From assembly GCF_003351345.1 (NCBI RefSeq), contig NZ_QQTO01000022.1, forward strand, positions 434,001 to 498,000: DNA of 64,000 bases, read 5' to 3'. Position numbers and translations under genes: made by a program. How positions within the stretch are numbered: position 1 is the first letter of the stretch; the number at the start of each line of letters is the position of its first letter. Below are positions 45,554 to 64,000 of the stretch, piece after piece. This stretch comes from Allobosea caraganae. Its GTDB lineage: Bacteria > Pseudomonadota > Alphaproteobacteria > Rhizobiales > Beijerinckiaceae. The notes below the pieces were generated by a model. That model worked only from the letters and a program-made list of their open reading frames with translations. It made no database searches and was not told the origin of the DNA.

Positions 45554-46651
45554 TTAGTGCAGGCGCTTCTCCGTCGCGGCGTCGAAGATGCGGATGTTCT
45601 CCTCTCTGGCGCCGAAGCGGAGCTTGTCGCCCGGCCGATAGACCGTCTCGGACGGGGCGCGGGCGACGATGGCGCCGTTCTGCAGGTCCATCAGCACGAA
45701 GGTCTCGGAGCCGTGCGGCTCGGCCACCCGGACCGTGCCCTCGATCAGGAGCGCGTGGCGCTCATCGTCCGGGCCGGCGAGGGTCAGCTCCTGCGGCCGC
45801 AGGCCGACGACGACGGGGCGTCCGTCTTCCGCGCCGCTGAGCCCTTCCGGCCAGACCGGCCCGAAGCTGCGCAGGGCCGCGGCGTTGGCGCCGAAGTCGA
45901 GGGCGCCGCCGCGGACGGTCGCATCGACCATGTTCATCTCGGGGCTGCCGATGAAGCGGGCCGTGAAGATGTCGGCCGGCCGGTTGTAGAGCTCCATCGG
46001 CGCGCCGACCTGGAGGATGCGGCCGTCGCGCATCACCACGATCCTGTCGGCCAGCGACATCGCCTCGACCTGGTCATGGGTGACGAAGACGATGGTGGTG
46101 CCGAGGCGCTGGTGGAGCTGCTTGATCTCCAGGCGCATCTGCCCGCGCAGCTGCGCATCGAGGTTGGAGAGCGGCTCGTCGAACAGGAAGGCCTGCGGGC
46201 TGCGGACCATGGCGCGGCCGATGGCGACGCGCTGGCGCTGCCCGCCCGAGAGCGCAGCCGGCCGGCGGTCGAGATAAGGCTCGAGCCCGAGCAGGTGGGC
46301 CGTCTCCAGGATGCGCTTGTCTTTGTCGGCTTTCGGCAGCTTTGAGGTGTAGAGCCCGAAGCCGATGTTCTGGCGCACGGTCAGGTGCGGGTAGATCGCG
46401 TAGTTCTGGAAGACCATCGCGATGTTGCGATGCTTCGGCTCGCGGTGGTTGACGACGTCGCCGCCGATGCGCAGCGTCCCGCCCGAGATGTCCTCAAGGC
46501 CTGCGATCATGCGCAAGGTGGTCGACTTGCCGCAGCCGGAGGGGCCGACGAAGACGACGAACTCGCCGTCCGCGATCGTCAGGTCGATGCCGTGGACGAC
46601 GGTCGCCGCGCCGTATTTCTTGACGATCTTCTGCAGCTCGATGCTGGCCAT
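45554..46651 (-). CDS. ABC transporter ATP-binding protein (UgpC/MalK type), second locus
   Basis: A 365-residue CUT1 ATPase. Walker A GPSGCGKSTTLRMIAGLED, Q-loop MVFQNYAIYPHLTV, signature LSGGQRQRVAIGRAMV, Walker B FLFDEPLSNLDAQ, switch VTHDQVEAMS, and the C-terminal regulatory part (VVGLRPQELTL). It is the last gene of the binding protein-permease-permease-lyase-ATPase operon. The start ATG shares a base with the stop of the lyase gene (TGATG), which ties a metabolic enzyme to the transporter. Confidence 0.93.
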   Translation of the reverse strand: MASIELQKIVKKYGAATVVHGIDLTIADGEFVVFVGPSGCGKSTTLRMIAGLEDISGGTLRIGGDVVNHREPKHRNIAMVFQNYAIYPHLTVRQNIGFGLYTSKLPKADKDKRILETAHLLGLEPYLDRRPAALSGGQRQRVAIGRAMVRSPQAFLFDEPLSNLDAQLRGQMRLEIKQLHQRLGTTIVFVTHDQVEAMSLADRIVVMRDGRILQVGAPMELYNRPADIFTARFIGSPEMNMVDATVRGGALDFGANAAALRSFGPVWPEGLSGAEDGRPVVVGLRPQELTLAGPDDERHALLIEGTVRVAEPHGSETFVLMDLQNGAIVARAPSETVYRPGDKLRFGAREENIRIFDAATEKRLH

Positions 46652-48159: not shown

Positions 48160-48169
48160 ATGCCGAAAC

Positions 48170-49015
48170 CTATCCCTTGACGCCGGCGAGCATGACGCCG
48201 CGGACGATGTAGCGCTGGAAGAAGAGGAAGATCAGCAGGGTCGGGATCGTAGCGAGCGAGGCGCCCGTCATGATCAGCTCCCACTGGATCGACTGCTCGA
48301 CGGCGAAGCTGGAGAGGCCGACCGGCAGCGTGTAGAGGTCGTGGTCGGTCGTGACGATCAGCGGCCAGAAGAACGCCGTCCAGTTGCCGAGGAAGGTGAA
48401 GATCGCCAGCGCCGACAAGGCTGGCGTGACCAGCGGCAGCGCGATCTTCCACCAGATCTGGAACTCGTTCAGGCCGTCGACGCGGGCGGCTTCGAGGAAG
48501 TCGTTCGGCACGGTCTCGAAGAACTGCTTCATCAGGAAGACGCCGAAGGCCGTCATCAGGCCGGGGAACATGATGCCCCAATAGGTGTCGATCCAGCCGA
48601 GCTTGCTCGCCATCAGGTACCAGGGGATCACCAGCATCTCGGTCGGGATCATCAGGGTCGAAAGGATGGCGATGAAGACGAATTGCCGGCCGCGGAACTG
48701 GAACTTAGCCAGCGCGTAGGCGACGAGGCTGTCGAAGAACAGGCAGGACAGCGTCACGATGGTCGAGATCAGCAGCGAGTTGAAGAACCAGCGCCCGAGG
48801 CGCCCGTCCGACAGCACCTTGACGTAGTTGTCGAAGGTCGGTGCCGCCGGCACCAGGCGCAGGTCGTAGACCTGGCCGGCGGTTTTCAGCGAGGTCGAGA
48901 ACATGAAGAGCAGCGGCGTGACCATGACGAGGCCGCCAAGCAGGAGCAGCGTCCAGGCGATGATCCGGCCGGGGCGGAGCGGCTTTGCGGCCGCGCTTTG
49001 AGGTGCGGAACTCAT
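48170..49015 (-). CDS. Carbohydrate ABC transporter permease (MalG-like), second locus
   Basis: A 281-residue membrane protein with six predicted helices. The EAA docking loop is LEAARVDGLNEFQIWWKIAL, and the end is RYIVRGVMLAGVKG, the common MalG C-terminus. It pairs with the MalF-like permease just upstream (1-bp gap). The lyase gene follows 10 bp downstream. Confidence 0.93.
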   Translation of the reverse strand: MSSAPQSAAAKPLRPGRIIAWTLLLLGGLVMVTPLLFMFSTSLKTAGQVYDLRLVPAAPTFDNYVKVLSDGRLGRWFFNSLLISTIVTLSCLFFDSLVAYALAKFQFRGRQFVFIAILSTLMIPTEMLVIPWYLMASKLGWIDTYWGIMFPGLMTAFGVFLMKQFFETVPNDFLEAARVDGLNEFQIWWKIALPLVTPALSALAIFTFLGNWTAFFWPLIVTTDHDLYTLPVGLSSFAVEQSIQWELIMTGASLATIPTLLIFLFFQRYIVRGVMLAGVKG

Positions 49016-49016
49016 C

Positions 49017-49952
49017 TCAGCGGCTCCTCAGGATCCAGAGCTGCGCCATCGAGATCGTCAGCAGGATCGTGAACAGGACCACGGTCTGCGCTGCCGCATA
49101 GCCCATCTGGTAGGACGAGAACGCGGTCTGGTAGATCATCAACACCAGCGGCTTGGTCGAGTTCAGCGGCCCGCCGGGGTCGTTGCTGGTCATGTTGTAG
49201 ACCTGGTCGAAGATCCTGAGAAAACCGATCGACGAGAACACGACGAGGAAGACGGTCGTCGGCTTGAGCAGCGGCAAGGTGATGCGCCCGAGCACGGCGA
49301 GCTCGCCCAGCCCGTCGACGCGCGCGGCCTCGTAGTAGCTCGTCGGGATCGCGCGCAGGCCGGCGAGGAAGATGATGATCTGGAAGCCGAGATGGGCCCA
49401 GATCCCCGTCGCCATGATGGCGTAGAGCCCCTGGTCGACCGAGCGCAGGAAGGGCTGCGTCGGCAGGCCGAGGAAGATGAGCAGGTCGTTGATCACGCCG
49501 ATCGGCGGCGGCTGGTAGAACCAGCGCCAGACCCAGGCCATCGCCGCCGCCGTCGTCAGGTAGGGCAGGAAGTAGAGCGCGCGGATGAAGCCGTGCAGGA
49601 TGACGACGCGGTCGAGGTAGTAGGCGATGGCGAAGGAGATGACGATGCTGAGCGGCGTGCCGACCAGCAAGTAGGCGAAGGTGTTGCGGAAGACCTGCCA
49701 GAACAGCGGGTCGGCGAACATCGTCCGGTAGTTCTCGAGCCCGACGAAATTCGCCTCGCGCAGCAGGTCCCAATCGGTGACCGAGAGGTAGAAGGCCTGC
49801 GCGGTCGGATAGAACCTGACGACGGTAAAGAACAGGATCGGGACGGCGAGGAAGCCCCAGGCCCAGATCACCTGCTTGGTCGAGATCCGCAGCCGGTCCC
49901 AGAGGCGGGCCGGCACCTCGTCGCGGCCGGCCGCCGCGCTCGTCACCGACAT
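49017..49952 (-). CDS. Carbohydrate ABC transporter permease (MalF-like), second locus
   Basis: A 311-residue membrane protein. A short cytoplasmic N-terminus is followed by WGFLAVPILFFTVVRFYP and further helices. The EAA loop is YEAARVDGLGELAVLGRITLPLLKP. It is the second gene of the operon, 1 bp after the binding-protein stop codon, and forms the channel with the MalG-like permease. Confidence 0.93.
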   Translation of the reverse strand: MSVTSAAAGRDEVPARLWDRLRISTKQVIWAWGFLAVPILFFTVVRFYPTAQAFYLSVTDWDLLREANFVGLENYRTMFADPLFWQVFRNTFAYLLVGTPLSIVISFAIAYYLDRVVILHGFIRALYFLPYLTTAAAMAWVWRWFYQPPPIGVINDLLIFLGLPTQPFLRSVDQGLYAIMATGIWAHLGFQIIIFLAGLRAIPTSYYEAARVDGLGELAVLGRITLPLLKPTTVFLVVFSSIGFLRIFDQVYNMTSNDPGGPLNSTKPLVLMIYQTAFSSYQMGYAAAQTVVLFTILLTISMAQLWILRSR

Positions 49953-49953
49953 C

Positions 49954-51243
49954 TCACTTGACCTTGCGGGCGTCGATGATGCGCTGCTCCTTCGGCACGG
50001 CGGCCGCGAGCGCCTCGGCGGCGGGCTGGTTCTTCAGCAGGACGCCGTTGATCATGTCGATCGCGACCTGGCGCTGCGCCGCCTCGTCGACGAAGAGCGT
50101 CGTGTGCGAGTAGTCGAGGCCGCGGATGAAGGGGCCGTAGACCGGGTCGGCCAGGTTCTTCTCGGTCATCGCCACGGTGCGGCGCGCCGGCAGTTCGCCG
50201 ACCTTGTCGAGCCAGACGTTCATCGCCTTCTCGGAGGTGATGAAGGCGAGGAACTTCTCGGCCGCCGCAAGCTTCTCCCCGGTCGCGCTGGCGCCGATCG
50301 CGTTGGCGAAGTAGCTGCCGAAATTCGAGCGGATGCCGTCATCGGAGGCCGGAAGCTCGGCGACGCCCCATTTGAAGGTTGTGATCGTCTTGAACGATGC
50401 GATGCGGAAGGTGCCGTCGATCACCATGCCGGCGAGACCGGCGCGGAAGGCGGCCTGGCCCTCGTCCATGAAGCCTTCCTGACTGACCTTCTGCTGGGTC
50501 TGCAGGCCGGTGTAGAACTCCAGCGCCTTGCGGCCGCCCTCGCTGTTATAGGTGACCTTGGAGCCATCGGCCGAATAGGGCTCGCCGCCGAACTGGCGGA
50601 CCAGCATCTCGCGCCACCAGTTGTGGTCCTGGCGGGAGATGTCCATGGCGACGCCGACCGTCTGGTAGTTGCCGGCTGCGTCGCGCTTGGCGATGGCCTT
50701 GGCGGCGGCGGTGAACTCGCTCAGCGTCTTCGGCGGCTTCTCCGGGTCGAGCCCGGCCTGCTGGAACAGGTCCTTGTTGTAGAACATCGCCATGGTGCGC
50801 ACGGCGGTCGGCAGGCCGTAATACTCGTCGCGGTACTTCATCGCCGAGACGATCGGGAAGAAGTCCTTCTCGACCTGCGCAGCCGGGAAGCGCTCCTTCG
50901 AGAGCGGCTGGATCAGGCGGCCGGCAATGAAGTTGTCGAGCCAACCGTAGAAGAGCTGGACGACGTCGGGGCCCCTGCCGCCGGCCTTCGCGGCGACGAT
51001 GCGCGTCTGATAATCGGCATAGGGGAAGGTCACCTGCTTGACGGTGATGCCGGGATTCTCGGCCTCGAACTCCTTGATCAGCAGGGTCATCGCCTGGACG
51101 CGCGAGTCGAAGAGATATTGCCAGTACTGAATTTCGACTGCCTGCGCCGGCGAGACGGCGGCAATGGCGAGGCAGGCGGCCCCGGCCGCAAGCGCGCATA
51201 GATTGGAGACAGCCCGGCGCAATCCCAGCAGGGACTTCCTCAT
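49954..51243 (-). CDS. ABC transporter solute-binding protein (family 1), second locus
   Basis: A 429-residue periplasmic binding protein with a long signal peptide (AVSNLCALAAGAACLAIAAV, cleaved after AQA). Family features are VEIQYWQYLFDSRVQAMTLL, IKEFEAENPGITVKQVTFPY, GLPTAVRTMAMFYNKDLFQQ and YFANAIGASATGEK. It is the first gene of the operon, and a 20-bp perfect palindrome lies 46 bp upstream of the start codon. The ligand is unknown; the lyase in the operon suggests something other than a plain sugar. Confidence 0.93.
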   Translation of the reverse strand: MRKSLLGLRRAVSNLCALAAGAACLAIAAVSPAQAVEIQYWQYLFDSRVQAMTLLIKEFEAENPGITVKQVTFPYADYQTRIVAAKAGGRGPDVVQLFYGWLDNFIAGRLIQPLSKERFPAAQVEKDFFPIVSAMKYRDEYYGLPTAVRTMAMFYNKDLFQQAGLDPEKPPKTLSEFTAAAKAIAKRDAAGNYQTVGVAMDISRQDHNWWREMLVRQFGGEPYSADGSKVTYNSEGGRKALEFYTGLQTQQKVSQEGFMDEGQAAFRAGLAGMVIDGTFRIASFKTITTFKWGVAELPASDDGIRSNFGSYFANAIGASATGEKLAAAEKFLAFITSEKAMNVWLDKVGELPARRTVAMTEKNLADPVYGPFIRGLDYSHTTLFVDEAAQRQVAIDMINGVLLKNQPAAEALAAAVPKEQRIIDARKVK

Positions 51244-52558: not shown

Positions 52559-54061
52559 ATGAGCGCCCCAGACAAGCAGCGGACGGCTATGCGGTCGGGG
52601 CACTCCGACCAGCACTACGACGTTATCGTCGTCGGCGCTGGGATGGCCGGGCTTTCCGCCGCGGCCTTGCTGGCGCGGCACAACTACAAGGTCCTGGTCG
52701 CTGAGGGTCACGACCGCCCCGGCGGCTGCATGACGTCCTGGGTCCGCAAGCCGCGCGACAGGAACCGCGTCGCCCGGCGCTTCGTCTTCGATGCGGGCGT
52801 GCAGGACATCAGCGGGTTGAGCCCGCAGGCGCCGGTGCGGCATCTTCTCAGCCAGATCGGCGAGCAGGACTCGCTGGACTGGCTGCCGGTTCAGCATCGC
52901 TATGTCGTCAATGGCACGACGCTCGATCTCCCACGCAACTGGGACGGGCTCGAACGCGTCCTCTGCGCGGCTTTCGCTGAGGACGCTGCTGGCATCAGCG
53001 CGCTCCTGCGCGAGATCAGGCTGGTCTACGATGAGCTCTATGCCGGAATGGCGGCGGCGGATTACCGCCCCGTGACGGCGTCCGCGCAGATGCAATCGGG
53101 GCAGCGCTTCGAACACGCCGCGCGAGCCGCAGGGCAATCCTATGTCGCGCTTCTGGAGCGCCATATCGGCAATCCGACCCTGATCAGCATCTTCAAGATC
53201 CTGTCCGAATACGTCACCGACGATCCGGCCTGTCTGAGCCTCACCGATATGGTGCCGCTGTTCGGCTATTATATCGGCGGCGGCTTCTACCCAGCCGGCG
53301 GCGCACAAAAACTGCCCGACCTGCTCTGCCGCTCGATCCAGCGGCATCATGGCGAGATCCGCCTCAAGAGCCGCGTCAACGCGTTCATTCTTCGCGACGG
53401 ACGGATCGCGGGCATCGAACTGGCGTCGGGCCAAGCGGCCTACGCGCCCGCCGTCATCAGCAATGCCGACATCGGCGCCAGCCATGGCGCGCTGCTCGGC
53501 CCCTACGACCTCCCCCCGCGCTACCGGCAGAGGCTCAAGCAATTGAAGCGCGGCCCCTCGGCGATCCTGATCAATTTCGGCCTGGACGCGATACCGGACC
53601 TGCCGGCGCGCGTCTTCGTCGAGCAGGACGGGCTGATCTTCGGACTCGGCAATCCCAGCGCCATCGATTCCACCCTGGCACCGGCCGGCCATGCCGCCCT
53701 GAGCCTGCTGCATCTGCTGCCTGAAGCCGAGGCGCACTCCTGGTTCGCGCTCAGCCCGGCCCAGGACGAGGACGCCAGAAAGCTCTACGCGCAAAAGCTG
53801 ATCGCCGCCGCAGGCCGGGTGATCCCCGGCCTGGAAGACCATATCGTGCATTATGAAGTCGCGGCGCCGCCGACATTCCGGCACTACATCCAGTCCGAGA
53901 ACGGCAGCATCTATGGCGCGGCGCGGGGTCAATGGTGCCCTCCCGTCGCCTCGCCCGTGCCCGGCCTGTTCCTGGCCGGGGCTGGCACCGCGACCGGCCC
54001 CGGCGTCGAGGCCGCCGTGCTGTCGGGCCTCCACGCCGCGCATGCGGTGATGGACCGGTAA
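52559..54061 (+). CDS. CrtI-like FAD-dependent oxidoreductase (phytoene-desaturase family)
   Basis: A 500-residue FAD enzyme. The dinucleotide motif VVGAGMAGLSAAALLARH (about 24-41) and the GHDRPGGCM extension are typical of the phytoene desaturase/carotene isomerase group. The C-terminal FAD motif is PGLFLAGAGTATGPGVEAAV. In between is YYIGGGFYPAGGAQKLPDLL. No carotenoid genes are nearby; the next genes belong to an aryl-polyene-type cluster, so it may act on the polyene chain or be an accessory gene. It converges on the phosphopantetheinyl transferase gene with a 2-bp gap. Confidence 0.88.
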   Translation: MSAPDKQRTAMRSGHSDQHYDVIVVGAGMAGLSAAALLARHNYKVLVAEGHDRPGGCMTSWVRKPRDRNRVARRFVFDAGVQDISGLSPQAPVRHLLSQIGEQDSLDWLPVQHRYVVNGTTLDLPRNWDGLERVLCAAFAEDAAGISALLREIRLVYDELYAGMAAADYRPVTASAQMQSGQRFEHAARAAGQSYVALLERHIGNPTLISIFKILSEYVTDDPACLSLTDMVPLFGYYIGGGFYPAGGAQKLPDLLCRSIQRHHGEIRLKSRVNAFILRDGRIAGIELASGQAAYAPAVISNADIGASHGALLGPYDLPPRYRQRLKQLKRGPSAILINFGLDAIPDLPARVFVEQDGLIFGLGNPSAIDSTLAPAGHAALSLLHLLPEAEAHSWFALSPAQDEDARKLYAQKLIAAAGRVIPGLEDHIVHYEVAAPPTFRHYIQSENGSIYGAARGQWCPPVASPVPGLFLAGAGTATGPGVEAAVLSGLHAAHAVMDR

Positions 54062-54063
54062 CG

Positions 54064-54723
54064 TCAGTCCCGCCAGGCGATGGACAGGAACATCTGATCC
54101 GACGGCTTGGCGTGCGCGACGGACCAGGCCGTCTCATCGACATGCGCACGCATCACGCCGCCCGAGACGGGACCGGCCAAATAATCGCAGCGATCGGTGA
54201 GCTGTGCGAAGGCGCGGCCGGTCGCCTTGGCCAGAGCCTCGCGCCCCGTCCAGATCCGGTAGAACGCTTTGGGCCCATCCTGCGCGACCTGTCGTCTTTC
54301 GGCCGGGCCAAACGCCAGTTCAGCGATGCCCGCGATATCGCGCTCCTTGGCGCTGCATTCGAGGTCGAGCCCCAGGCCGGGGACGAAGCCATAGGCGGCG
54401 GCAACGAAACCGTTCGCATGCGAGATCGAGATGACCGGCGTAACCTCCCGCGCGCCGGCCTCCAGAACGGGCCGGCCGGTCGGGTCGCGCAGGATGGAGC
54501 GCTGGCGAGACGCGTCAACCTCTCCTCTCAGCATGTAGCGCAGGAGCGCCCGGGCGGCTTGGGAGGACGGCGAATAGGCCTTGTCCGCCGGGTGCGACCA
54601 GCCACCGAGACGTTCCCGCGCAAAAGCCCCCTCCTCGCCCATCAAAGCAAGGGTGATCCGGCCCTGCGGCCTGGCGCGCTCCGGAAGGGATATCGGCAGG
54701 GAAAAGGCCGGAATATCGAACAT
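54064..54723 (-). CDS. 4'-phosphopantetheinyl transferase (Sfp/Gsp type)
   Basis: A 219-residue enzyme that attaches phosphopantetheine to carrier proteins. Motifs are SISHANGF (99-106), GLDLEC with D120 and E122 as Mg ligands, and WTGREALAKATG (158-169), where Arg replaces the usual Lys of WxxKEAxxK while Glu162 and Lys166 remain. It should activate the two acyl carrier proteins of this cluster. I chose the ATG at 54723. It is divergent from the chain-length factor gene over about 75 bp, which must hold the promoters of both. Confidence 0.88.
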   Translation of the reverse strand: MFDIPAFSLPISLPERARPQGRITLALMGEEGAFARERLGGWSHPADKAYSPSSQAARALLRYMLRGEVDASRQRSILRDPTGRPVLEAGAREVTPVISISHANGFVAAAYGFVPGLGLDLECSAKERDIAGIAELAFGPAERRQVAQDGPKAFYRIWTGREALAKATGRAFAQLTDRCDYLAGPVSGGVMRAHVDETAWSVAHAKPSDQMFLSIAWRD

Positions 54724-54797
54724 TACACGCGAAACTGGATGGCCGACGCAAGGCAGCCAAGCTATGAGAACCGTCTCCGATGCCAAGCGAAATTTTC

Positions 54798-55514
54798 ATG
54801 AGATTTGCGGTTCGAAACTGGTTCGCATGGACGTCCGAGCGGATTTCGAGCGCGCAATGGCGGGATTGGGCCGGTCCCTGCCGCGAGGACGACTTCGTCC
54901 CCCCCGTCGCCTTGCCCTTGTCCCTGCGCCGGCGCGCGACCCCGATGGGGCAGACCCTGCTTGCCGGCGCCCTGGGCTTCACCGAGATCGTGCAGGAGGC
55001 GCGCTATGTCCAGGCCTCCCGCCATGGCGAGTTCAGCCGGGCGCGCCAGACCCTGCTGGCGCTGGCGCAGGAGGAGGAGTTGTCGCCGGCCGAATTCAGC
55101 ATGTCCGTCCATCACGGCCTTGCCGGGCTGCTGTCGATCCACGCGCAAAACCGGCAGGGGCACATCGCCCTGGCGGCGGGCACCGAGTCCTTCGCCTGCG
55201 GCCTGCTCGAGGCCGCCGCATGCATCGCCGAACGCCCGCAGACGCCCATCCTGCTGCTCTACGCCGATGAGAAGCTGCCGCATGAATTCGCCGGGCTCGC
55301 CGGCCCTGAAAGCGCCTTGCCCTGCGTCATGGTGCTCGGCCTGACGGCGCCGCGCATGGACGGCGACGACATCATCCTGACGCAGGAGCCCGCCAGCCGC
55401 CCCGGAGACCCGTCGCCTTCGGCCGCCTTGGATTTTCTGCGCTTCCTTCTTTCGGGCGAGGCGCAGGCGGTTTCGCATGGCGAACACTGGGACTGGACCT
55501 GGCGGCATGCTTGA
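54798..55514 (+). CDS. Ketosynthase chain-length factor of aryl-polyene type
   Basis: A 238-residue protein of the Ketoacyl-synt_2 family. It begins MRFAVRNWFAWTSERISSAQ, as such factors usually do, and contains FSMSVHHGLAGLLSIHAQN and ALAAGTESFACGLLEAAACI. It is about half the length of a full ketosynthase and lacks a TACSSS-type active site. In the Escherichia aryl polyene pathway the equivalent (ApeC) pairs with a ketosynthase (ApeO); the partner here is the gene starting at 63125. A start at 54780 is possible. It is the first gene of the long operon. Confidence 0.87.
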   Translation: MRFAVRNWFAWTSERISSAQWRDWAGPCREDDFVPPVALPLSLRRRATPMGQTLLAGALGFTEIVQEARYVQASRHGEFSRARQTLLALAQEEELSPAEFSMSVHHGLAGLLSIHAQNRQGHIALAAGTESFACGLLEAAACIAERPQTPILLLYADEKLPHEFAGLAGPESALPCVMVLGLTAPRMDGDDIILTQEPASRPGDPSPSAALDFLRFLLSGEAQAVSHGEHWDWTWRHA

Positions 55515-56280
55515 CCGGCTCGGCCGCATCTACCGCATCCTCGGGACCGGCTTCTTCTTCGCCATCCTGTTCGGCGGCGGCGCGGCCATCGCGGCCATCG
55601 CCTTTCCGATCGTCGGCCTGACGACGCGCGACCCGCGGCTGCGGCGGGAGCGCAACCAGTACATCATCCACCTGCTCTTCAGGTCGTATATCGGCTCGAT
55701 GCGCCTGATGCGGCTGGCCTTCTTCGACTACAGGGGCCTGGACAAACTGCGCGACGCGCCGGGCCGGATGGTGATCGCCAATCACCCGTCCCTGCTCGAC
55801 GTCGTCATGCTGATGGCGCTGATGCCGCGCGCCCAATGCATCGTGAAGCAGTCGCTCTGGGAGAGCCCCTATCTCGGCCGCCTGGTGCGGGGCGCCGGCT
55901 ATATCAGCAACGCCCTGCCGACGGAGCAATTGATCGAGGCCTGCCGCCAGAGCATCGACGACAAGACCTGCCTCATCGTCTTCCCGGAAGGCACCCGGAC
56001 CACGCCCGGCGAGCCGATGCGGCTGCAGCGCGGCTTCGCCAACGTCGCCCTCATGCTGGGGCTCGACATCCAGCTCGTCACCATCACCTGCACGCCGCCG
56101 ACCCTCTTGAAGGGGCAGAAATGGTATGCGATTCCTCCGCGCCGGCCGGTATTTCGCGTCGATGTAGGAGAAATGTTATCGGTAAAGCATATGCTGAACG
56201 ACCATGGACGACCTCTGGCCGCCCGAAAGCTGGTCAGGATGGTCTCAGCCTACTACGAGGACAAGCTGGCGAATGGATGA
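55507..56280 (+). CDS. PlsC-like lysophospholipid acyltransferase
   Basis: A 257-residue membrane-bound acyltransferase. The catalytic H-x4-D motif is at residues 93-98 (ANHPSLLDVV), and the glycerolipid-binding block is VFPEGTRTTPGEPMRL. A hydrophobic N-terminal segment (GTGFFFAILFGGGAAIAAIA) anchors it. In aryl polyene clusters such an enzyme probably moves the finished acyl chain to a lipid. I chose the ATG at 55507, overlapping the upstream stop by 8 bp. Confidence 0.9.
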   Translation: MLDRLGRIYRILGTGFFFAILFGGGAAIAAIAFPIVGLTTRDPRLRRERNQYIIHLLFRSYIGSMRLMRLAFFDYRGLDKLRDAPGRMVIANHPSLLDVVMLMALMPRAQCIVKQSLWESPYLGRLVRGAGYISNALPTEQLIEACRQSIDDKTCLIVFPEGTRTTPGEPMRLQRGFANVALMLGLDIQLVTITCTPPTLLKGQKWYAIPPRRPVFRVDVGEMLSVKHMLNDHGRPLAARKLVRMVSAYYEDKLANG

Positions 56281-56551
56281 ACTGGAAACACGCATCAAGC
56301 GGCTGATCATCGATAGCCTCAAGCTCGAAGACCTCAAGCCGGAGGATATCGCCAGCGACGAGCCTCTCTTCGTCGAAGGACTGGGCCTGGATTCCATCGA
56401 TGCGCTCGAGCTCGGCGTCGCCCTGCGCAAGACGTTCGGCCTGACCATCGAAACCGTAACGGACGACGTCAAACTTCATTTTCGGACGGTTGGCAGCTTA
56501 GCTCGGTTTGTCCGCTCGCAACAGAAAGACCCTCAACACCATGTCGCGTGA
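56273..56551 (+). CDS. Acyl carrier protein 1 (aryl-polyene-type cluster)
   Basis: A 92-residue carrier protein. Ser41 in GLGLDSIDALELG is the attachment site for phosphopantetheine. Helix I is TRIKRLIIDSLKLEDL. It overlaps the acyltransferase gene by 8 bp and the second carrier protein gene by 11 bp. It corresponds to one of the two carrier proteins (ApeE/ApeF) used for chain elongation in known aryl polyene pathways. Confidence 0.93.
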   Translation: MDELETRIKRLIIDSLKLEDLKPEDIASDEPLFVEGLGLDSIDALELGVALRKTFGLTIETVTDDVKLHFRTVGSLARFVRSQQKDPQHHVA

Positions 56552-56792
56552 CGAGCTCTACCAGCAGATCAAGTCGTATCTCGTCGACGTCTTCGAAGTC
56601 CCGGCCGACAAGGTCACGCCGGACGCGCGGCTCTATGAAGACCTCGACCTCGATTCCATCGACGCCGTCGACCTGATCGTGAAGCTGCAGGACCTCACCG
56701 ACCAGAAGTTCAAGCCGGACGACTTCAAGTCGGCCCGCACCGTCGCCGATGTCGCCGACCGGGTCGACGCGATGATGAAGGCGCAAGCCTGA
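56541..56792 (+). CDS. Acyl carrier protein 2 (aryl-polyene-type cluster)
   Basis: An 83-residue carrier protein with the modified serine at position 39 in DLDLDSIDAVDL. The sequence is only distantly related to the first carrier protein. It starts inside the end of that gene. Two different carrier proteins in tandem are a hallmark of aryl polyene clusters. Confidence 0.93.
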   Translation: MSRDELYQQIKSYLVDVFEVPADKVTPDARLYEDLDLDSIDAVDLIVKLQDLTDQKFKPDDFKSARTVADVADRVDAMMKAQA

Positions 56793-56821
56793 ACCGAGGC
56801 TCGACCTCCGTGGGCCCGGCC

Positions 56822-57361
56822 ATGCGCGCGCTGCTGATCGTGCTGGGCCTGGCCTATCCCGTGCTGGCCTACTGGGGCCATGGCACCGTCTCGCCTGCAG
56901 TCTTCGTTCTGGTGGCCTTGGCGCTGCTGGCCGCCCGCTACCTGCTGGCTCCCGTGGGACCGCTCAACCTCAACCACCCGACCGTCCTGATCATCGGCGC
57001 AGCGCTCATCGTCATGGGCCTCGTCGACCAGTCCCTGGCCAGCCTCGCCTATCCCAGCCTGATCAGCTGGGCTTTCGCCTCGGCTTTCGGCCTGTCGCTG
57101 CTGCATCCGCCGAGCCTGATCGAACGCTTCGCCCGCGCCCGGCATCCGGATCTGCCGGATGAGGCGAGAGCCTATTGCGCGCGCATCACCTTGCTATGGA
57201 CTCTCTGGCTGCTGGCCAACGGCCTGATCGCAGCCGCCCTCGCCTTCGGCGGGAAGCTGGAACTCTGGCTGCTCTGGACCAGCCTGATCAACTACCTCAT
57301 CAGCGGCAGCCTGTTCGGCGGCGAGTGGCTGTTCCGCCGGCTCAGGCGCATGCCGTCATGA
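56822..57361 (+). CDS. COG4648-type membrane protein of aryl-polyene cluster
   Basis: A 179-residue protein with about five hydrophobic segments (ALLIVLGLAYPVLAYWGHGT; VFVLVALALLAARYLLAP; VLIIGAALIVMGLVDQSLA; LIAAALAFGGKLELWLLWTS). SLIERFARARHPDLP is a conserved loop. It is a regular member of aryl polyene operons with no assigned activity. The ATG at 56822 is chosen; a GTG at 56810 is the alternative. The stop overlaps the next start codon (ATGA). Confidence 0.85.
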   Translation: MRALLIVLGLAYPVLAYWGHGTVSPAVFVLVALALLAARYLLAPVGPLNLNHPTVLIIGAALIVMGLVDQSLASLAYPSLISWAFASAFGLSLLHPPSLIERFARARHPDLPDEARAYCARITLLWTLWLLANGLIAAALAFGGKLELWLLWTSLINYLISGSLFGGEWLFRRLRRMPS

Positions 57362-58713
57362 CGGCCGGCGGCCTCATGCCCATTCCGATGGGTTGGCGTG
57401 ATGAACTGGACCGGCCCATTGCCTGTCGCAGCGATGGCGAACTGGTCTCGCGGCGGCAGTTCATTGCCGACCTCAACCACAACATCGGGCTGTTGGGGCA
57501 GAGGCCCGACGAGGCCGCAATCCTGTCCACGGCCAATCTCTATTGGTTTGCCGTCGGGCTGTTCGCGCTGGCCGCCTGCCGCAAGCGCACCATCCTTGCC
57601 GCCAACGACCTGCCTGCGACCCTGGCGGGGCTGACCGACCATGCCGGGCTGCTCGTCGGCGATCGAGAGCATGCTTTCTCCGGCGTGCAGCACCGGCTCC
57701 AGCGAAGCGACGACGCCCGAGGCACGGCATGGCCCGAGATCGCCCTGACCGCGCCGATCTGCTTCTTCACCTCCGGCTCGACCGGCGGGCCGAAGCGGAT
57801 CGACAAGGAGCTGCGCCATCTCGTCACCGAGGCGGAGGCGATCTCCGACTTGTTCGCCGCGCAGCGAGCAGGGTTCCGCTCGGTCTGCGGGACGGTGCCG
57901 CATCACCATGCCTATGGCCTGGCCTTCCGGTTGGTCTGGCCGCTGATCTCGGGCATTCCCTTCGCAGAGGAGACGCCGGAATTCCTGGAACAGGCTTTGG
58001 CCGAGCTCGATATCGGCGCTGTCTTCGTCACCAGCCCGGCCCATCTGCACCGGCTCGACGGCTTCGCGCCGCTGCCATCGGCAAGGCGGCCGGCCTGCGT
58101 CCTCAGCGCCGGCGCGCCGCTCGATGGGGAGGCAGCGCAGCGGGCGCAGGAGCTCTTCGGCTGCGCGGTGACGGAGATCTACGGCTCGACGGAGACCGGC
58201 GCGCTCGCCAGCCGCCTGCATGATCGCTCCGGGGAGCCGTGGCGGCCCCTGCCCGGCGTGCAACTGTCGCAGGACCCGTCGGGCCATGCCAGCGCGACCG
58301 CCCCGCATATCCCGGGTGGGCAGGCGGTGCTCGCCGACCATGTCCGTAGGCGCGACGATGCAGGCTTCGACCTGCTCGGGCGGCGCGACCGCGTCGTCAA
58401 GATCGAGGCCAAGCGGGTGAGCCTCGACGAGGTCGAGGCGCGGCTGCGCGAACTGGCCGATGTCGAGGACGCCATCGTCATCGTGCGCGGCCATCCGGCG
58501 CGCCTTGCCGCCTGCGTCGTGCCGAGCGGGGCGGGGGCGGGGTTTCTTGCCAATGAAGGCGCTTTCCGGTTTAACCGCAGGATACGCGCCGCTCTGGCAA
58601 TTCATCTCGAAGCTGCCAGCTTGCCTCGGCATTGGCGCTTCGTTGAGCAATTGCCACGCGGCGCCCTAGGCAAGATCAGCCAGCGCGACGTCGAAACATT
58701 GTTTGATGAGTAA
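57358..58713 (+). CDS. AMP-dependent acyl-ACP ligase (aryl-polyene starter activation, ApeH-like)
   Basis: A 451-residue adenylate-forming enzyme. The P-loop-like motif is FFTSGSTGGPKRID, followed by TVPHHHAYGLAFRLVWPLIS, EIYGSTETGALASR and, near the end, LLGRRDRVVKIEAKRVSLDEVE. The likely final Lys is in GALGKISQRDVE. It would activate an aryl acid starter, such as 4-hydroxycinnamate or 4-hydroxybenzoate types, and load a carrier protein. It overlaps the upstream gene by ATGA and the dehydratase gene by 8 bp. Confidence 0.9.
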   Translation: MTAGGLMPIPMGWRDELDRPIACRSDGELVSRRQFIADLNHNIGLLGQRPDEAAILSTANLYWFAVGLFALAACRKRTILAANDLPATLAGLTDHAGLLVGDREHAFSGVQHRLQRSDDARGTAWPEIALTAPICFFTSGSTGGPKRIDKELRHLVTEAEAISDLFAAQRAGFRSVCGTVPHHHAYGLAFRLVWPLISGIPFAEETPEFLEQALAELDIGAVFVTSPAHLHRLDGFAPLPSARRPACVLSAGAPLDGEAAQRAQELFGCAVTEIYGSTETGALASRLHDRSGEPWRPLPGVQLSQDPSGHASATAPHIPGGQAVLADHVRRRDDAGFDLLGRRDRVVKIEAKRVSLDEVEARLRELADVEDAIVIVRGHPARLAACVVPSGAGAGFLANEGAFRFNRRIRAALAIHLEAASLPRHWRFVEQLPRGALGKISQRDVETLFDE

Positions 58714-59086
58714 TGCCCCTACGACGCAGTTGTCCGGCAGAACCGAGCCCGACATATCGATGGTGCGCCCGACCGCAGACGGCGTGCAGATCGATCTCTC
58801 CGCGCCCCCCGACCTTGCCTATCTCGCCGGCCATTTTCCCGAGGCGCCGATCGTGCCCGGCGTCGTGCAGATCAATTGGGCGATCGAACTGGCCGCCCGC
58901 CATTTGCAGCTCGTGCTGGAGGCGGGAACCCAGTTCCAGGTGAAGTATCGCCGGGTCTTCCTGCCCGGCAGACCCGTCACTTTGACGCTGACCAACAAGA
59001 ATGGCGCCTTACGCTTCGACTATGCCGATCAGGGCGACGTGCTGTCATCCGGCTCGATCAGGCTGAAGCACGGGGAGAGCCGCTGA
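58706..59086 (+). CDS. Hotdog-fold 3-hydroxyacyl-ACP dehydratase (ApeI-like)
   Basis: A 126-residue FabA/FabZ-like protein. His43 in AGHFPEAPIVPGVVQINWAI is the expected catalytic His, and FQVKYRRVFLPGRPVTLTL continues the family pattern. It removes water in each polyene elongation cycle. It is followed at 1 bp by the thioesterase gene. The start ATG at 58706 overlaps the end of the ligase gene. Confidence 0.9.
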   Translation: MSNAPTTQLSGRTEPDISMVRPTADGVQIDLSAPPDLAYLAGHFPEAPIVPGVVQINWAIELAARHLQLVLEAGTQFQVKYRRVFLPGRPVTLTLTNKNGALRFDYADQGDVLSSGSIRLKHGESR

Positions 59087-59087
59087 G

Positions 59088-59507
59088 ATGGGTATTTTTG
59101 CCGAGGCCAAAGCCGAGGTCCAGTTCTACGATCTCGATCCGATGCAGATCGTCTGGCACGGCAATTATCCGCGCTTCCTGGAACTGGCCCGCGGCGCGCT
59201 GCTCGACCGGCTCGACTATAATTATCCGCAGATGGCGGCCTCAGGCTATGTCTGGCCGATCGTCGACATGCAGATCAAATACGTCAAGCCGGCGCGCCTG
59301 GCCCAGAAGCTCACGATCCGCGCGACGCTGCTCGAATACGAGAACCGCATCAAGATCGCCTACCGCATCAACGACGATCCAAGCGGCGAGTTGCTGACGA
59401 AGGCGCAGACGATCCAGCTTTGCGTCGATGCTGGGACCGGCGAGCTGCGGCTCGATTGCCCGCCGGAGTTCATCAGGAAAGTGGAGGCGCTTCGTGATGG
59501 GGCATAG
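59088..59507 (+). CDS. Acyl-CoA/acyl-ACP thioesterase (4HBT family, ApeK-like)
   Basis: A 139-residue hotdog thioesterase. Asp17 in FYDLDPMQIVWHGNYPRFLE lies where 4-hydroxybenzoyl-CoA thioesterases have their catalytic Asp, and WHGNY is conserved in this group. YVWPIVDMQIKYVKPARL follows. In aryl polyene pathways this enzyme may release chains or clear stalled carriers. The end overlaps the LolA-like gene by 11 bp. Confidence 0.9.
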   Translation: MGIFAEAKAEVQFYDLDPMQIVWHGNYPRFLELARGALLDRLDYNYPQMAASGYVWPIVDMQIKYVKPARLAQKLTIRATLLEYENRIKIAYRINDDPSGELLTKAQTIQLCVDAGTGELRLDCPPEFIRKVEALRDGA

Positions 59508-60171
59508 CTCGACCGGGCCTCGGGCTTCGGGCCTGCAGTTCTGCGGTGACGCGCTGAGGCCGATCGCCTGCGCACTCACCCTGTCCTTCCTCGCGCTGCT
59601 GCTCCAGGCCCTGCCGTCGCAGGCGCAGAGCACGACCTTGCAGGAGGGCCAGATCCTGCGCGGGCAGTTCGAGCAGAAGCGCTATCTCAGCGGCCTCGAC
59701 AATCCCGTCAGAAGCTCCGGCGTGTTCACGCTGGTCGCGGGCAAGGGCTTGATCTGGACCACGAAAAGGCCGTTCGCGACGGTGACGGTGATGACCGAGG
59801 CCGGCCTGGTCCAGGACGTGAAGGGCAAGGAGACGCTGCGCCTCAGCGCCAGCAAGCTCCCGGTCATGGCGAAGCTCTATACGATGTTCGGCGCGGCGCT
59901 GACCGGAAATTGGGACGCCATGCAAGGCGCCTTCACCTTGACCCGCCAACAGAATGGCCAGGCCTGGACCATTCACCTCGAGAGCCTCAGGGCGGATGAT
60001 CCCAACCTGCCGATCAAGGCGATCAAGGCGCGTGGCCAAAAACTTCTCGACGAGGTCGAGGTGGTGAAGACCAATGACGACCGCGACGTGCTGACCTTCT
60101 CCAACCAGAAGCTGGAAGCCGGCCGGCTGACGCCGGAGGAAGAGGAATTCCTGGTGAGGGCGCAGCGCTGA
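59497..60171 (+). CDS. LolA-like outer-membrane lipoprotein carrier of the aryl-polyene cluster
   Basis: A 224-residue exported protein with signal peptide ACALTLSFLALLLQALPSQA. The LolA-like body reads GQILRGQFEQKRYLSGLDNP, VRSSGVFTLVAGKGLIWTT and WTIHLESLRADDP. In these clusters a dedicated LolA paralogue probably carries the lipid-linked polyene across the periplasm. GGAGG lies 9 nt before the ATG at 59497, and 6 nt before a GTG at 59494, which may be the true start. The last base-triplet, TGA, overlaps the proposed CTG start of the exporter gene. Confidence 0.88.
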   Translation: MGHSSTGPRASGLQFCGDALRPIACALTLSFLALLLQALPSQAQSTTLQEGQILRGQFEQKRYLSGLDNPVRSSGVFTLVAGKGLIWTTKRPFATVTVMTEAGLVQDVKGKETLRLSASKLPVMAKLYTMFGAALTGNWDAMQGAFTLTRQQNGQAWTIHLESLRADDPNLPIKAIKARGQKLLDEVEVVKTNDDRDVLTFSNQKLEAGRLTPEEEEFLVRAQR

Positions 60172-62480
60172 CGCGCTCCCAAGCCAGCCTGCTTTGGCTG
60201 CTCGCGGTGGTCGCCGCGGGCATTTTTCTTGTTTTCAGCTTCCGCCAAGCGAATCCGCTGCGCACGGACCTCACCGCCTTGCTGCCCCTGGAGCAGCAGG
60301 ACCCGGCGCGGCAGAAGGCCAATGACCTGATCTCCCGGTCATTGGCGAAGCGATTTATCGTCCTGATCAGCCATAAGGACCGCGCGCAGGCGCGGGCCCG
60401 CGCCGCCGAACTGGCAAAGGCGCTCGAAGAGACGAAGCTCGTCAGGCCGATCGGCGATGATTTCAGCCCCGACCAGTTCAGGAAGCTCGGCACGCTCTAT
60501 TTCGCCCATCGCGCCGGCCTGCTCTCGCCGGGCGACCGCGACGCACTGCTGGCCGATCAGGGCCAGGACCTCGCGGAGCGGGCGATGGCGCAGATCGTCG
60601 GCCCCGGCGCGATCGCCGATGCGCGCCTGCTGAAGGCCGATCCGTTCCTGCTCCTGCCCTCGTTCCTGCTCAACCTGCCCTTTCCGGCCACGAAGCTGGC
60701 GCTGGACGAGGGCATGCTCGCGCTGCGGGACGAGAATGGCACGCATATTCTTTTGTCGGCTAATTTACTTGCCGACCCGTTCGACCTCACGGTCCAGCAG
60801 ACCATCGTTTCGACCTTCAATCGCTACGAGGCCGCGCTGGACAGGCTGGACCCTCCCTCTATCCGCCGCCTCGGCGCGGTGTTCTTCGCGGAGGCCGGCG
60901 CGCATAAGGCCATCGACGAATCCTCCTGGCTAGCGGGCTTTTCGCTCGCCGGGACCATCCTGCTCATCCTCGTCGCGTTTCGCGGGTTGCGGCCCCTGTT
61001 CCTGAACCTGCTGGTGATCGCCGCCGGCGTGGTCTGCGGCCTGAGCGCCTGCCTTTTGGTTTTTGCGCAGGTCCATGTCGCCGTGCTGCTGTTCGGCATC
61101 AGCCTCATCGGCGTCGCTGCCGATTACGGCTTCTATTATACGGCGACGATCTTTGCGGCCGAGGACAAGACGCCTGAGCAACGGCTAAAGGAGATCCTGC
61201 CCGGCCTGTCCATGGCGCTGCTGATCGCCGTTCTCGGCTATGGCGCGCTGGCGATCGCGCCCTTCCCGGGCCTGCGCCAGATCGCCATCTTCTCCGCCGT
61301 CGGGCTGGTCAGCGCCTATATCACGACCGTGCTGTGGCTGCCTTTGGCCGACAGGCGCAAGCGGCCGGCCCATGCGGCGCAAACCCTGCGCTTCATCACC
61401 GGGCTTTCACGGCTCTGGACCGACAGGCGGTGGCGCGTGCTGCGGCTCGGCTTCTGCGGCGTCCTCGTCGTGATCGTGGCAGCCGGCCTCGGGCGCATCA
61501 GCTTCGATGACGACCTCAGGAAACTGCAGCCGCTCGACGCGTCGCTCATAGCCGATCAAAGCGCCATTACTGCCGTCACCGGCCTGAATCTGACCACACA
61601 GTATCTGCTGGTCGAAGCGGCCAGCGACGAGCGGGCGTTGCAACTCGAAGAGCAGATCGCGCCGATGCTCGGGCAATGGCAAAAATCCGGCCTGATCAAG
61701 ACAGCGCAGTCGCCGGCTGCCTATGTGCCATCGCTGGCGCGGCAGGCGGAGAACCAGCGGCTCCAGCGCGAAAAACTCATTGAACCATTCCGCGCGGAGC
61801 TGCTGGAGGCGATCGGCCTGCAAGCCGGCGACCTCAACCCGGCGCCGGACGAAAAGCTCGCGCTCGCCACGGCGCTGGAGAGCCGCGCCATCCCCTTCCT
61901 CAACGAGCTCGTGCTCGAACCCGGCCTGCATGTCGTCACGCTCCAAGGCGTTACCAGCCCCGAGCGCATCAGGCAGGAGATCGCCGGCATGGCCGGGATC
62001 AAGTTCGTCGATCCGACCGCCGATCTCAGCGCCCTGCTCGGCCTCTACCGCTTTCGCGCGCTGGTGCTCCTCGCCTGCTCGCTCGGGGTGATCTCGCTGC
62101 TCGCGGCGTGGCGCTACGGCTCAAGCGGCGCCGCGCGGGCGCTGGCGCCGTCCTTCGTCGCGCTGCTGGTCGTGCCCTGCGCGCTGGGATTGCTCGGCTA
62201 TGCCTTCACCTTCTTCAACGCCATGGCCATGGTGCTGCTGCTCTCCTTCACCATGGATTATTCGGTCTTCTGCGCCGAGGGCAAAGCGGAGAGCCGGCCG
62301 ATCACGCTGCTGGCCGTGTGGCTGGCGGCGCTGGCGACGATCCTGTCCTTCGGCGTCCTCGGCTTCTCCAGCACGCCCGTCGTGGCGAGCTTCGGCCTCA
62401 CCGTCCTGCTGGGCGTCGCCCTCGCCGGCCTGCTGGCCCCGATAGCTGCCCCGGCCCTCAAAGAGCCCGGCGGCTCCTAG
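60168..62480 (+). CDS. MMPL/RND-family exporter of the aryl-polyene cluster, apparently CTG-started
   Basis: A 770-residue membrane protein with two six-helix bundles: SLAGTILLILVAFRGLRPLF, GISLIGVAADYGFYYTATIF, then LVLLACSLGVISLLAAWRYG and MAMVLLLSFTMDYSVFCAEG. Large periplasmic loops lie between the first helix and the bundles. It likely moves the polyene lipid out of the inner membrane. No ATG lies near the needed start: a GTG at 60207 would cut the first helix (SLLWLLAVVAAGIFLVF). The CTG at 60168, 7 nt after AGGG and overlapping the upstream stop as CTGA, fits best. Confidence 0.85.
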   Translation: MTRSQASLLWLLAVVAAGIFLVFSFRQANPLRTDLTALLPLEQQDPARQKANDLISRSLAKRFIVLISHKDRAQARARAAELAKALEETKLVRPIGDDFSPDQFRKLGTLYFAHRAGLLSPGDRDALLADQGQDLAERAMAQIVGPGAIADARLLKADPFLLLPSFLLNLPFPATKLALDEGMLALRDENGTHILLSANLLADPFDLTVQQTIVSTFNRYEAALDRLDPPSIRRLGAVFFAEAGAHKAIDESSWLAGFSLAGTILLILVAFRGLRPLFLNLLVIAAGVVCGLSACLLVFAQVHVAVLLFGISLIGVAADYGFYYTATIFAAEDKTPEQRLKEILPGLSMALLIAVLGYGALAIAPFPGLRQIAIFSAVGLVSAYITTVLWLPLADRRKRPAHAAQTLRFITGLSRLWTDRRWRVLRLGFCGVLVVIVAAGLGRISFDDDLRKLQPLDASLIADQSAITAVTGLNLTTQYLLVEAASDERALQLEEQIAPMLGQWQKSGLIKTAQSPAAYVPSLARQAENQRLQREKLIEPFRAELLEAIGLQAGDLNPAPDEKLALATALESRAIPFLNELVLEPGLHVVTLQGVTSPERIRQEIAGMAGIKFVDPTADLSALLGLYRFRALVLLACSLGVISLLAAWRYGSSGAARALAPSFVALLVVPCALGLLGYAFTFFNAMAMVLLLSFTMDYSVFCAEGKAESRPITLLAVWLAALATILSFGVLGFSSTPVVASFGLTVLLGVALAGLLAPIAAPALKEPGGS

Positions 62481-62531
62481 AAGCCTGCGATCCTTGTGCT
62501 ATAAGCGCCCGTAACAAGAAAAGGGCCCTTG

Positions 62532-63128
62532 ATGCGACCGTGGCGCGATTGGCTGATAGGCGGCTTGTTCTTTGCTTTGGCCGGCTGCGCATCCGATACA
62601 AATTCAGCAGGAACGGGCGAGGCCACGATGCTGATCGGCCCGCAATTGCCGATCCGCGCCATCTCCCCCGCCGAATTCGCGTTCAAGGGCCAGGTCACGC
62701 AGGTGCTGACCATGCGCTTCGGCGAGCAGTCCATCAATCTCGAAGCGCAGCTCGTCATGAGCAAGAGCGAGGTCCGCGCGATCCTGCTCGATTCGCTCGG
62801 GCGCCGCGCCGTGACCCTGGCCTGGCGCGAGGGCAAGCTCGAGTCCCAGCTCGCATCCTGGCTGCCGCCGGGCATCCGCGCCGACGCGATCTTCGCCGAC
62901 ATGATGATCCTCTACGGCCAGCCTGCCGCGTTGCAAGCCGCCCTCAAGGATTCCGGCTGCGCGCTGGAGCTGGGCAGGGCCTCGCGCCTGCTGCGCTGCC
63001 GCGACAAGGAGGTCCTGCGCGCCGAGTACGAGCTGAAATCGCCGAAGACGCTGAACGGCTCGCTGCATTACGCCAACCTCGCCTGGGGCTATGACGTCGA
63101 TGTCCAGTCCGCGGAAGTCCTGCGGTGA
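62532..63128 (+). CDS. DUF3261 lipoprotein of the aryl-polyene cluster
   Basis: A 198-residue lipoprotein: signal DWLIGGLFFALAGC with a good lipobox (LAGC). The DUF3261 body has FKGQVTQVLTMRFGEQSINL, EVRAILLDSLGRRAVTLAW and MILYGQPAALQAAL. Such lipoproteins are regular members of aryl polyene clusters (ApeN-like) and probably sit in the outer membrane with the LolA-like carrier. AAGGG precedes the ATG at 62532. The stop overlaps the next start as GTGA. Confidence 0.88.
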   Translation: MRPWRDWLIGGLFFALAGCASDTNSAGTGEATMLIGPQLPIRAISPAEFAFKGQVTQVLTMRFGEQSINLEAQLVMSKSEVRAILLDSLGRRAVTLAWREGKLESQLASWLPPGIRADAIFADMMILYGQPAALQAALKDSGCALELGRASRLLRCRDKEVLRAEYELKSPKTLNGSLHYANLAWGYDVDVQSAEVLR

Positions 63129-64000
63129 CGGAGCATCTCAGCCTGTCCGCCATGGGGCTGGTGACACCCATCGGGACTGGCAAGGCCGAGACCGCCGAGA
63201 ACCTGTTCAAGGGCTCCCAGGCCGGCTTTCGGACGCGCGGCGATCTCATCCCTGGGCGACAGGCTCTGGTCGGGGAGGTCATGGGGGACACCCCTGCCCT
63301 GCCAGCCGGGCTGGCGAAGTGGGACTGCCGCAACAACAGGATGATGGCTGTGGCGCTGGAGCAGATCCGCCCCGATCTCGATCGCGCGATTGGGCGCTAC
63401 GGAGCAAATCGCATCGCCGTCATCCTCGGCACCAGTACCTCGGGCATCGCCGAAGGCGAGGCGGCTTTCGCGGAGCGCGTGAAGGCGGGGCGATGGCCCC
63501 CGCATTTCGACTATGCGCAGCAGGAAACCGGCGGCCTCAGCGAATTCGTCAAGGCATTCCTCGGCCTCACCGGCCCGGCCTACACGATCGCCACCGCCTG
63601 CTCGTCGAGCGCGAAAGTCTTCGCCACGGCGCGGCGGCTGATCCGCCTGGGGCTCGTCGACGCGGCCATCGTCGGCGGCGCGGATTCGCTGTGCCGGATG
63701 ACGCCGAGCGGCTTCACCGCGCTCGCCTCGGTTTCCGCCAGACCGGCCAATCCGTTCAGCCGGAACCGCGACGGGATCACGATCGGCGAGGCAGCGGCCG
63801 TGTTCCTGCTCGAAAAGGAGCCCGGCGAGATCGTCTTCATGGGCATCGGCGAGACCTCCGACGCCCACCACATCAGCGCACCCGACCCGCAGGGAGCGGG
63901 AGCAGAAAACGCCATGCGCGCGGCGCTCGACGATGCCGGCTGCGAGGCCGGCGACATCGCCTATGTCAACCTGCACGGCACCGCGACGCCGCTGAACGAC
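63125..64000 (+). CDS. Beta-ketoacyl-ACP synthase of aryl-polyene type (ApeO-like), cut by the window end
   Basis: The first 292 residues of a KAS I/II-type enzyme, running off the window. It starts with GTG in an overlap with the lipoprotein stop (GTGA). The nucleophile Cys159 is in TIATACSSSAK, and the first catalytic His284 is in YVNLHGTATPLND. GVTPIG-like start (SAMGLVTPIGTGKAETAENL) and GADSLCRMTPSGFTAL are standard. It should pair with the chain-length factor at 54798-55514. The remaining C-terminal third lies beyond 64000. Confidence 0.92.
   Translation, partial: MTEHLSLSAMGLVTPIGTGKAETAENLFKGSQAGFRTRGDLIPGRQALVGEVMGDTPALPAGLAKWDCRNNRMMAVALEQIRPDLDRAIGRYGANRIAVILGTSTSGIAEGEAAFAERVKAGRWPPHFDYAQQETGGLSEFVKAFLGLTGPAYTIATACSSSAKVFATARRLIRLGLVDAAIVGGADSLCRMTPSGFTALASVSARPANPFSRNRDGITIGEAAAVFLLEKEPGEIVFMGIGETSDAHHISAPDPQGAGAENAMRAALDDAGCEAGDIAYVNLHGTATPLND

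Follow-up and report, generated by a model that had tools for sequence, protein, structure and literature searches.

A gene for a CrtI-like flavin adenine dinucleotide (FAD) oxidoreductase was found to be a constant, selected part of a sharp-bordered aryl polyene (APE) island in the members of Bosea that carry the island. The gene lies in a stretch of 64,000 nucleotides of Allobosea caraganae (contig C33, positions 434001–498000, of a 6.17 Mb genome; this whole stretch is the window, and coordinates are given in its numbering), in which positions 52559–64000 form the left part of a complete APE cluster, the island totalling about 16.4 kb. The APE pathway itself appears ordinary, with the CrtI-like gene as an additional, constant member of the island in Bosea. 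The complete gene set, the co-occurrence of the CrtI-like gene with ApeO in 4 of 67 genomes, the shared borders, the ratios of nonsynonymous to synonymous substitution rates (dN/dS) and a near-full-length match to the FAD superfamily support the reading that an ordinary APE pathway is joined here by a genus-specific FAD-dependent polyene oxidoreductase or isomerase, which we consider fairly probable and which would most likely act on the polyene at the membrane.

Orthologs of the CrtI-like gene were present in 4 of 67 Bosea genomes, that of A. caraganae included (the other three at 79, 71 and 67% identity), and the ketosynthase ApeO scored above its cut-off in the same four genomes, Bosea sp. 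BK604 among them; the APE island is carried by few members of the genus. Under independent spread of CrtI and ApeO the chance of equal sets is 1 in 766,480; a block moving whole gives the same pattern. The CrtI-like gene stands at the ApeC end of all four islands, and in the G840 island, in which no 4'-phosphopantetheinyl transferase (PPTase) gene was found, it lies about 150 bp upstream of ApeC on the same strand. In each of the three comparisons with the other islands, DNA similarity runs from within CrtI to within the gene for a glycosyltransferase-acyltransferase fusion (GT2-LpxL). Outside the island, the compared flanks (on the left 2.5 kb against the three islands and 8.6 kb against BK604 only, on the right 8.2 kb) share one 104-base match, about 6.4 kb rightward in BK604, and the left flanks hold no DNA upstream of CrtI common to the other islands. 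Since the shared DNA starts inside CrtI and the flanks differ, the island begins at CrtI and the LacI gene lies outside it, in agreement with the clean upstream border at LacI noted in a preliminary description of this DNA. The dN/dS of CrtI was 0.18, 0.22 and 0.22 in three pairs, against 0.12–0.35 for seven other island genes (NG86 method; dS was 0.83–1.19, near saturation). A decaying passenger gene is disfavoured by these ratios and by the finding of stop codons in none of the four copies.

Scanning of 20 island and border proteins against Pfam and NCBIfam, together with homology to other APE clusters, gave the following genes (positions above 64000 are window-equivalent coordinates on the same contig):

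52559–54061, plus strand: CrtI-like FAD oxidoreductase, first gene of the island (500 residues; PF01593, 101.1 bits against a gathering cut-off of 19.8)
54064–54786, minus strand: PPTase, between the CrtI-like gene and ApeC (PF01648, E 2.8e-10)
54780–55514, plus strand: ApeC-like chain-length factor (PF13723, E 1.9e-41)
55477–56280, plus strand: ApeD-like PlsC acyltransferase (PF01553, E 8.4e-16)
56273–56551, plus strand: acyl carrier protein 1 (NF006617 above cut-off; PF00550; start uncertain by a few codons, query start 56279)
56541–56792, plus strand: acyl carrier protein 2 (NF003757 above cut-off; PF00550; start uncertain by a few codons, query start 56529)
56810–57361, plus strand: ApeG-like membrane protein of COG4648 type (no Pfam match; homology to other APE clusters)
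57355–58713, plus strand: ApeH-like AMP-forming ligase (PF00501; TIGR02372, 130.1 bits, below the cut-off of 334.7)
58703–59086, plus strand: ApeI-like dehydratase (PF22818, 40.8 bits against a cut-off of 28.5)
59088–59507, plus strand: ApeK-like thioesterase of YbgC type (TIGR00051 above cut-off)
59497–60171, plus strand: LolA-like carrier (ApeL), start uncertain (PF19574; NF053544, 38.9 bits, below the cut-off of 125)
60207–62480, plus strand: MMPL/RND-like transporter (ApeM; no Pfam match at E 0.001; HpnN and HAE3 nearest in NCBIfam, both below cut-off; homologs hold this position in other APE clusters)
62529–63128, plus strand: DUF3261 LolB-like protein (ApeN; PF11659, E 6.4e-18)
63125–64318, plus strand, cut by the window end at 64000: ApeO ketosynthase (NF006618, 515.7 bits against a cut-off of 407)
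64320–64796, beyond the window: ApeP (PF22817, above the Pfam cut-off)
64793–65518, beyond the window: ApeQ (TIGR01831 above cut-off)
about 65515–66738, beyond the window: ApeR (NF006587, 655.5 bits against a cut-off of 470)
66749–67195 (L006:3749–4195), beyond the window: small protein with a signal-like start (no Pfam match)
67261–69009, minus strand: GT2-LpxL fusion, 582 residues, right end of the island

The island holds an ApeO–ApeC pair of ketosynthase and chain-length factor, a second ketosynthase (ApeR), two carrier proteins, the ApeH ligase, the ApeI and ApeP dehydratases and the ApeQ reductase, as well as an envelope module consisting of PlsC, glycosyltransferase/acyltransferase, thioesterase, LolA, MMPL, DUF3261 and ApeG proteins (MMPL and ApeG by homology alone). 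Judged against the E. coli gene table in the accessible part of PMC8253772, the APE core and envelope module are complete. The gene order from which the preliminary description had recognised an APE-type operon was recovered throughout, every gene named there standing in its place by Pfam/NCBIfam match or homology, and its remark that the CrtI-like enzyme lies outside the Escherichia ape set agrees with the same table; the COG4648 name of the ApeG-like protein is taken from both sources. The minus-strand PPTase gene had been overlooked.

Relatives of the small protein at 66749–67195 were found in all four Bosea islands, and of 13 other APE loci three have one. Directly right of the island lies a gene for a TetR-family regulator (69324–70034, L006:6324–7034; PsrA nearest, 110.3 bits against a cut-off of 300), and left of LacI, outside the shared island, the minus strand (46651–51243) holds a set that resembles, by eye, a sugar ABC transporter with an argininosuccinate-lyase-like gene. 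Neither Rfam nor tRNA scans of the window gave a match, and no odd base composition was seen (G+C 0.62–0.70 per kb).

By analogy with the E. coli and Xenorhabdus systems, ApeH would load an aromatic acid (4-hydroxybenzoate in E. coli) onto a carrier protein, ApeR and ApeO/ApeC would extend the chain, and ApeQ, ApeI and ApeP would form the conjugated double bonds. The polyene would be released by ApeK and attached to a lipid by ApeD and the GT2-LpxL fusion, and ApeM, ApeL and ApeN would carry the product to the outer membrane. The CrtI-like FAD oxidoreductase would most likely act on the conjugated chain or on the finished lipid at the inner membrane, the candidate reactions being desaturation, saturation or redox-neutral cis-trans isomerisation; it would work close to ApeG, probable relatives of which are fused to CrtI-like enzymes elsewhere (see below).

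ApeP, ApeQ, ApeR and GT2-LpxL follow past 64000, as the preliminary description had anticipated, but the ammonia lyase also sought there is not in the island: neither an ammonia lyase nor a methyltransferase was found among the 20 scanned proteins. As to the source of the aromatic starter, UbiC had no match in the genome, and its three PF00221 lyases all lie outside the island. The lack of an ammonia lyase in the island and of UbiC in the genome would fit a role of the CrtI-like enzyme in forming the aryl ring from the polyene by cyclisation and then dehydrogenation, as proposed for cinnamoyl lipids, an aromatic starter being unneeded. Also in line with such a role are a distant relative (26% identity) beside a ketosynthase-like gene in a nonribosomal peptide synthetase cluster on a Streptomyces plasmid (L101), and the desaturation proposed to follow 6-pi electrocyclisation in cinnamoyl peptides (accessible part of PMC6510318). 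We regard ring building as very improbable, given that two proteins which process an aromatic starter in known APE pathways, the ApeH ligase and ApeR, are retained in the island, that an isomerase gene was not seen, that PF00221 lyases are present elsewhere in the genome, and that the cluster of another alphaproteobacterium (G440) is likewise without an ammonia lyase, yet also without CrtI.

ApeC was found in 1 of 149 genomes of the family (A. caraganae itself), ApeP above cut-off in 3 of 297 genomes of the order, A. caraganae included, and ApeO in 88 of 398 genomes of the phylum. Of the other 87 ApeO genomes, 80 were searched for CrtI, with at most 19 candidates scored per genome, so that very distant relatives were possibly missed. 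CrtI-type matches at 1e-6 occurred in 12 of the 80, of which only those of G664 (about 34 kb), G766 (about 40 kb) and G757 (about 250 kb) shared a contig with ApeO; CrtI was found in the APE cluster of none of the 80 genomes, the nearest match lying about 34 kb from ApeO. Nor was it found in the remaining seven APE loci, in 40 APE loci (all from those 80 genomes) searched with six CrtI-type queries, or in 13 other APE loci outside the genus, a count that leaves out L070, which is not a canonical cluster and is likewise without CrtI. CrtI as a general APE gene is unsupported by these counts, and the conservation beside the cluster to which the preliminary description had given weight holds for the four Bosea carriers and was not found in other genera. 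A CrtI-like gene in an APE cluster is undescribed in the accessible parts of PMC8253772, PMC10469690, PMC8358021, PMC10213415, PMC11837247, PMC6510318, PMC9321520 and PMC9381841, subscription literature being largely outside this scope.

In the 40 and 13 comparison loci, an ammonia lyase was found in 23 and 9, respectively, and a tryptophan-halogenase-like FAD enzyme, encoded between MMPL and DUF3261, in 25 and 9. The latter is found in none of the four Bosea islands, all of which have CrtI, a pattern that would be expected if the CrtI-like enzyme replaced the halogenase-like one and modified the aromatic head instead of the chain. However, the two enzymes belong to different families and take different places in the cluster, and the nearest cluster (G440) as well as loci of the G790 set such as L069 are without both, so there is no strict exchange; such a replacement seems improbable to us.

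The CrtI-like protein is a member of the CrtI/amine-oxidase FAD superfamily, as its PF01593 score indicates, and aligns with the phytoene dehydrogenase 4DGK over nearly its full length. This membership would also suit a gene that serves carotenoid or hopanoid metabolism and stands beside the cluster by chance. Among the 25 of 68 families listed, however, no carotenoid model (CrtI, CrtD, CrtISO) was above its cut-off, TIGR02734 reaching 139.4 of 238.1, TIGR02730 135.2 of 586.9 and TIGR02733 99.9 of 549.7. In a tree of 22 CrtI-like proteins the four Bosea proteins formed one clade (support 100/100), and the CrtI proteins of Pantoea and Paracoccus, with 24–27% identity to the Bosea protein, fell on a separate long branch. 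Within Bosea the gene is present only with APE genes. The 20 proteins scanned from the island and its borders included no phytoene synthase, the rest of the genome not having been searched for it. The sub-cut-off scores and the tree placement disfavour a carotenoid desaturase, and we consider chance proximity of a carotenoid or hopanoid gene highly unlikely.

The nearest relatives are mostly proteins of about 700 residues from related alphaproteobacteria and a Thauera plasmid, with 33–38% identity over the flavoenzyme part. The closest neighbour of the Bosea clade was the G894 protein (a moderately supported join, 86/88), and in 385 genomes of the class, relatives at 1e-40 were found only in A. 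caraganae itself, G894 (40%) and G491 (32%). In G491, genes identified by tblastn and by eye as ketosynthase-, ketoreductase-, ligase- and dehydratase-like lie beside the CrtI-like gene. This cluster (L095, 1–10636, alphaproteobacterium) also has N-acetyltransferase- and ATP-grasp-like genes and a separate ApeG-like membrane gene. Besides the Streptomyces protein, distant relatives were found in a cluster of ketosynthase, ketoreductase, FabZ and PPTase genes of Pseudalkalibacillus (28%; plasmid, L103) and in a chain-length-factor/LolA cluster of a Persicobacter plasmid (22%; L108). Skyllamycin-type clusters, too, hold a phytoene-dehydrogenase-like gene. As the distant relatives sit with ketosynthase-type genes, the recruitment of CrtI-like enzymes to polyene-type synthases may have happened repeatedly.

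An N-terminal membrane domain of about 190 residues is present in the long CrtI-like proteins. In G491 it is encoded on its own, within the cluster that holds the CrtI-like gene, and it has free-standing relatives in other genomes and two in that of A. caraganae; free-standing and fused forms match at 1.9e-17 in profile comparison. The two A. caraganae relatives are at G000:C19:9365–9781 (L140), adjoined by a gene resembling, by eye, a carotenoid-cleavage oxygenase, and at G000:C21:995–1456 (L141). ApeG matched the domain family at 2.2e-5 over 172 columns (50 ApeG rows, 36 of them new and gathered by the ApeG profile alone, and 20 domain rows), with same-run controls of at least 0.053. In three runs the reversed-row controls gave 0.17, 0.078–0.4 and 0.053–0.33, and MMPL-window controls gave 0.027–0.75 (six windows) and 0.053–0.73 (13 windows). 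The first profile comparison had been non-significant (E 0.11, Prob 0.5), and a value of 1.1e-6 was rejected as biased by L150, whose ApeG was chosen by the other profile, and by the spurious fragment L143_8109 (1.4e-4 without both); these two are left out of the counts. When the first domain profile was run over 4473 open reading frames, the best non-member was ApeG (0.0086) and the next, not an ApeG, followed at 1.3, while the reverse search with the ApeG profile reached the membrane gene of G491 at 0.67. In a run of the domain profile over 7383 open reading frames, all seven matches between E 1e-8 and 1 were ApeG rows, from six genes including that of the window. Across 398 genomes the first match after the clear domain-family members was the ApeG of G484 (E 5.6e-4). 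Four of the 40 APE loci yielded no ApeG. We consider it probable that ApeG and the membrane domain fused to CrtI-like proteins are remote relatives in one superfamily, although the fused domains alone gave a weaker match (see below).

ApeG has been suggested to be a pyrophosphatase powering export (accessible part of PMC8253772). In the four ApeG proteins scanned this suggestion found no Pfam support, and for two of the four the IspA membrane family matched weakly, under its cut-off. Proteins that work together are commonly recognised by being fused elsewhere and encoded by two genes of a single island. We tentatively put forward, as a rather doubtful extension, that ApeG is not a pyrophosphatase but a membrane module of the type fused to CrtI-like flavoenzymes, the parts of which Bosea would keep as separate genes, and that both would form a split membrane enzyme altering the conjugated chain to give an undescribed aryl polyene lipid.

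Several observations weigh against a polyene-modifying CrtI-like enzyme that works with ApeG. Around the seven long CrtI-like proteins of the family, the 14–20 kb fetched contain no APE gene, and APE clusters of other genera yielded no CrtI, which is therefore not needed for APE. When compared with the fused domains alone, ApeG reached only 0.0047 with 50 ApeG rows and 0.11 with the first 14, and, so far as could be judged, none of the 17 matches weaker than the G484 ApeG (E 0.004–0.09) occupies an ApeG position. Because ApeG is also present in APE clusters without CrtI, the link through the fusion proteins is a lead and not a proof.

Few bacterial pigments are as widespread as the aryl polyenes. 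The constant addition of a polyene-type flavoenzyme to the APE cluster in one clade suggests a means of diversifying the chain or its lipid.

Among known systems, the plasmid cluster of Persicobacter (Bacteroidota) resembles that of Bosea in combining a CrtI-like gene with genes for a chain-length factor, LolA, an acyltransferase and an AMP-binding protein, whereas its CrtI-like protein has only 22% identity and a place in the tree that rests on a long branch. The fused proteins of about 700 residues, from members of the same taxonomic family, from G894 and from a Thauera plasmid, are the nearest relatives and have an N-terminal membrane domain that is absent from the Bosea protein. The carotenoid enzymes CrtI, CrtD and CrtISO share the FAD superfamily with the Bosea protein, which aligns with 4DGK but is below the curated cut-offs listed. 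Of the clusters compared from outside Bosea, those of G440 and G576, both other alphaproteobacteria, come closest, with ApeR at 71 and 69% and ApeO at 58% each. The G440 cluster is like that of Bosea in being without an ammonia lyase and a halogenase-like gene and in having the PPTase gene beside ApeC, and differs from it in that CrtI was not found in the DNA compared and that GT2-LpxL lies between ApeI and ApeK; CrtI was also not found in the DNA compared of G576, but there a contig end cuts the cluster before ApeC. The APE clusters of E. coli CFT073 (apeA–R) and Xenorhabdus doucetiae have in common with Bosea ApeC, D, E, F, G, H, I, K, L, M, N, O, P, Q and R and an ApeJ-like glycosyltransferase/acyltransferase (accessible part of PMC8253772). 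In contrast to these two, the Bosea island has no recognised ApeA lipoprotein or ApeB methyltransferase, carries its ApeJ-like gene at the right end on the minus strand, and has added a PPTase gene and the CrtI-like gene.

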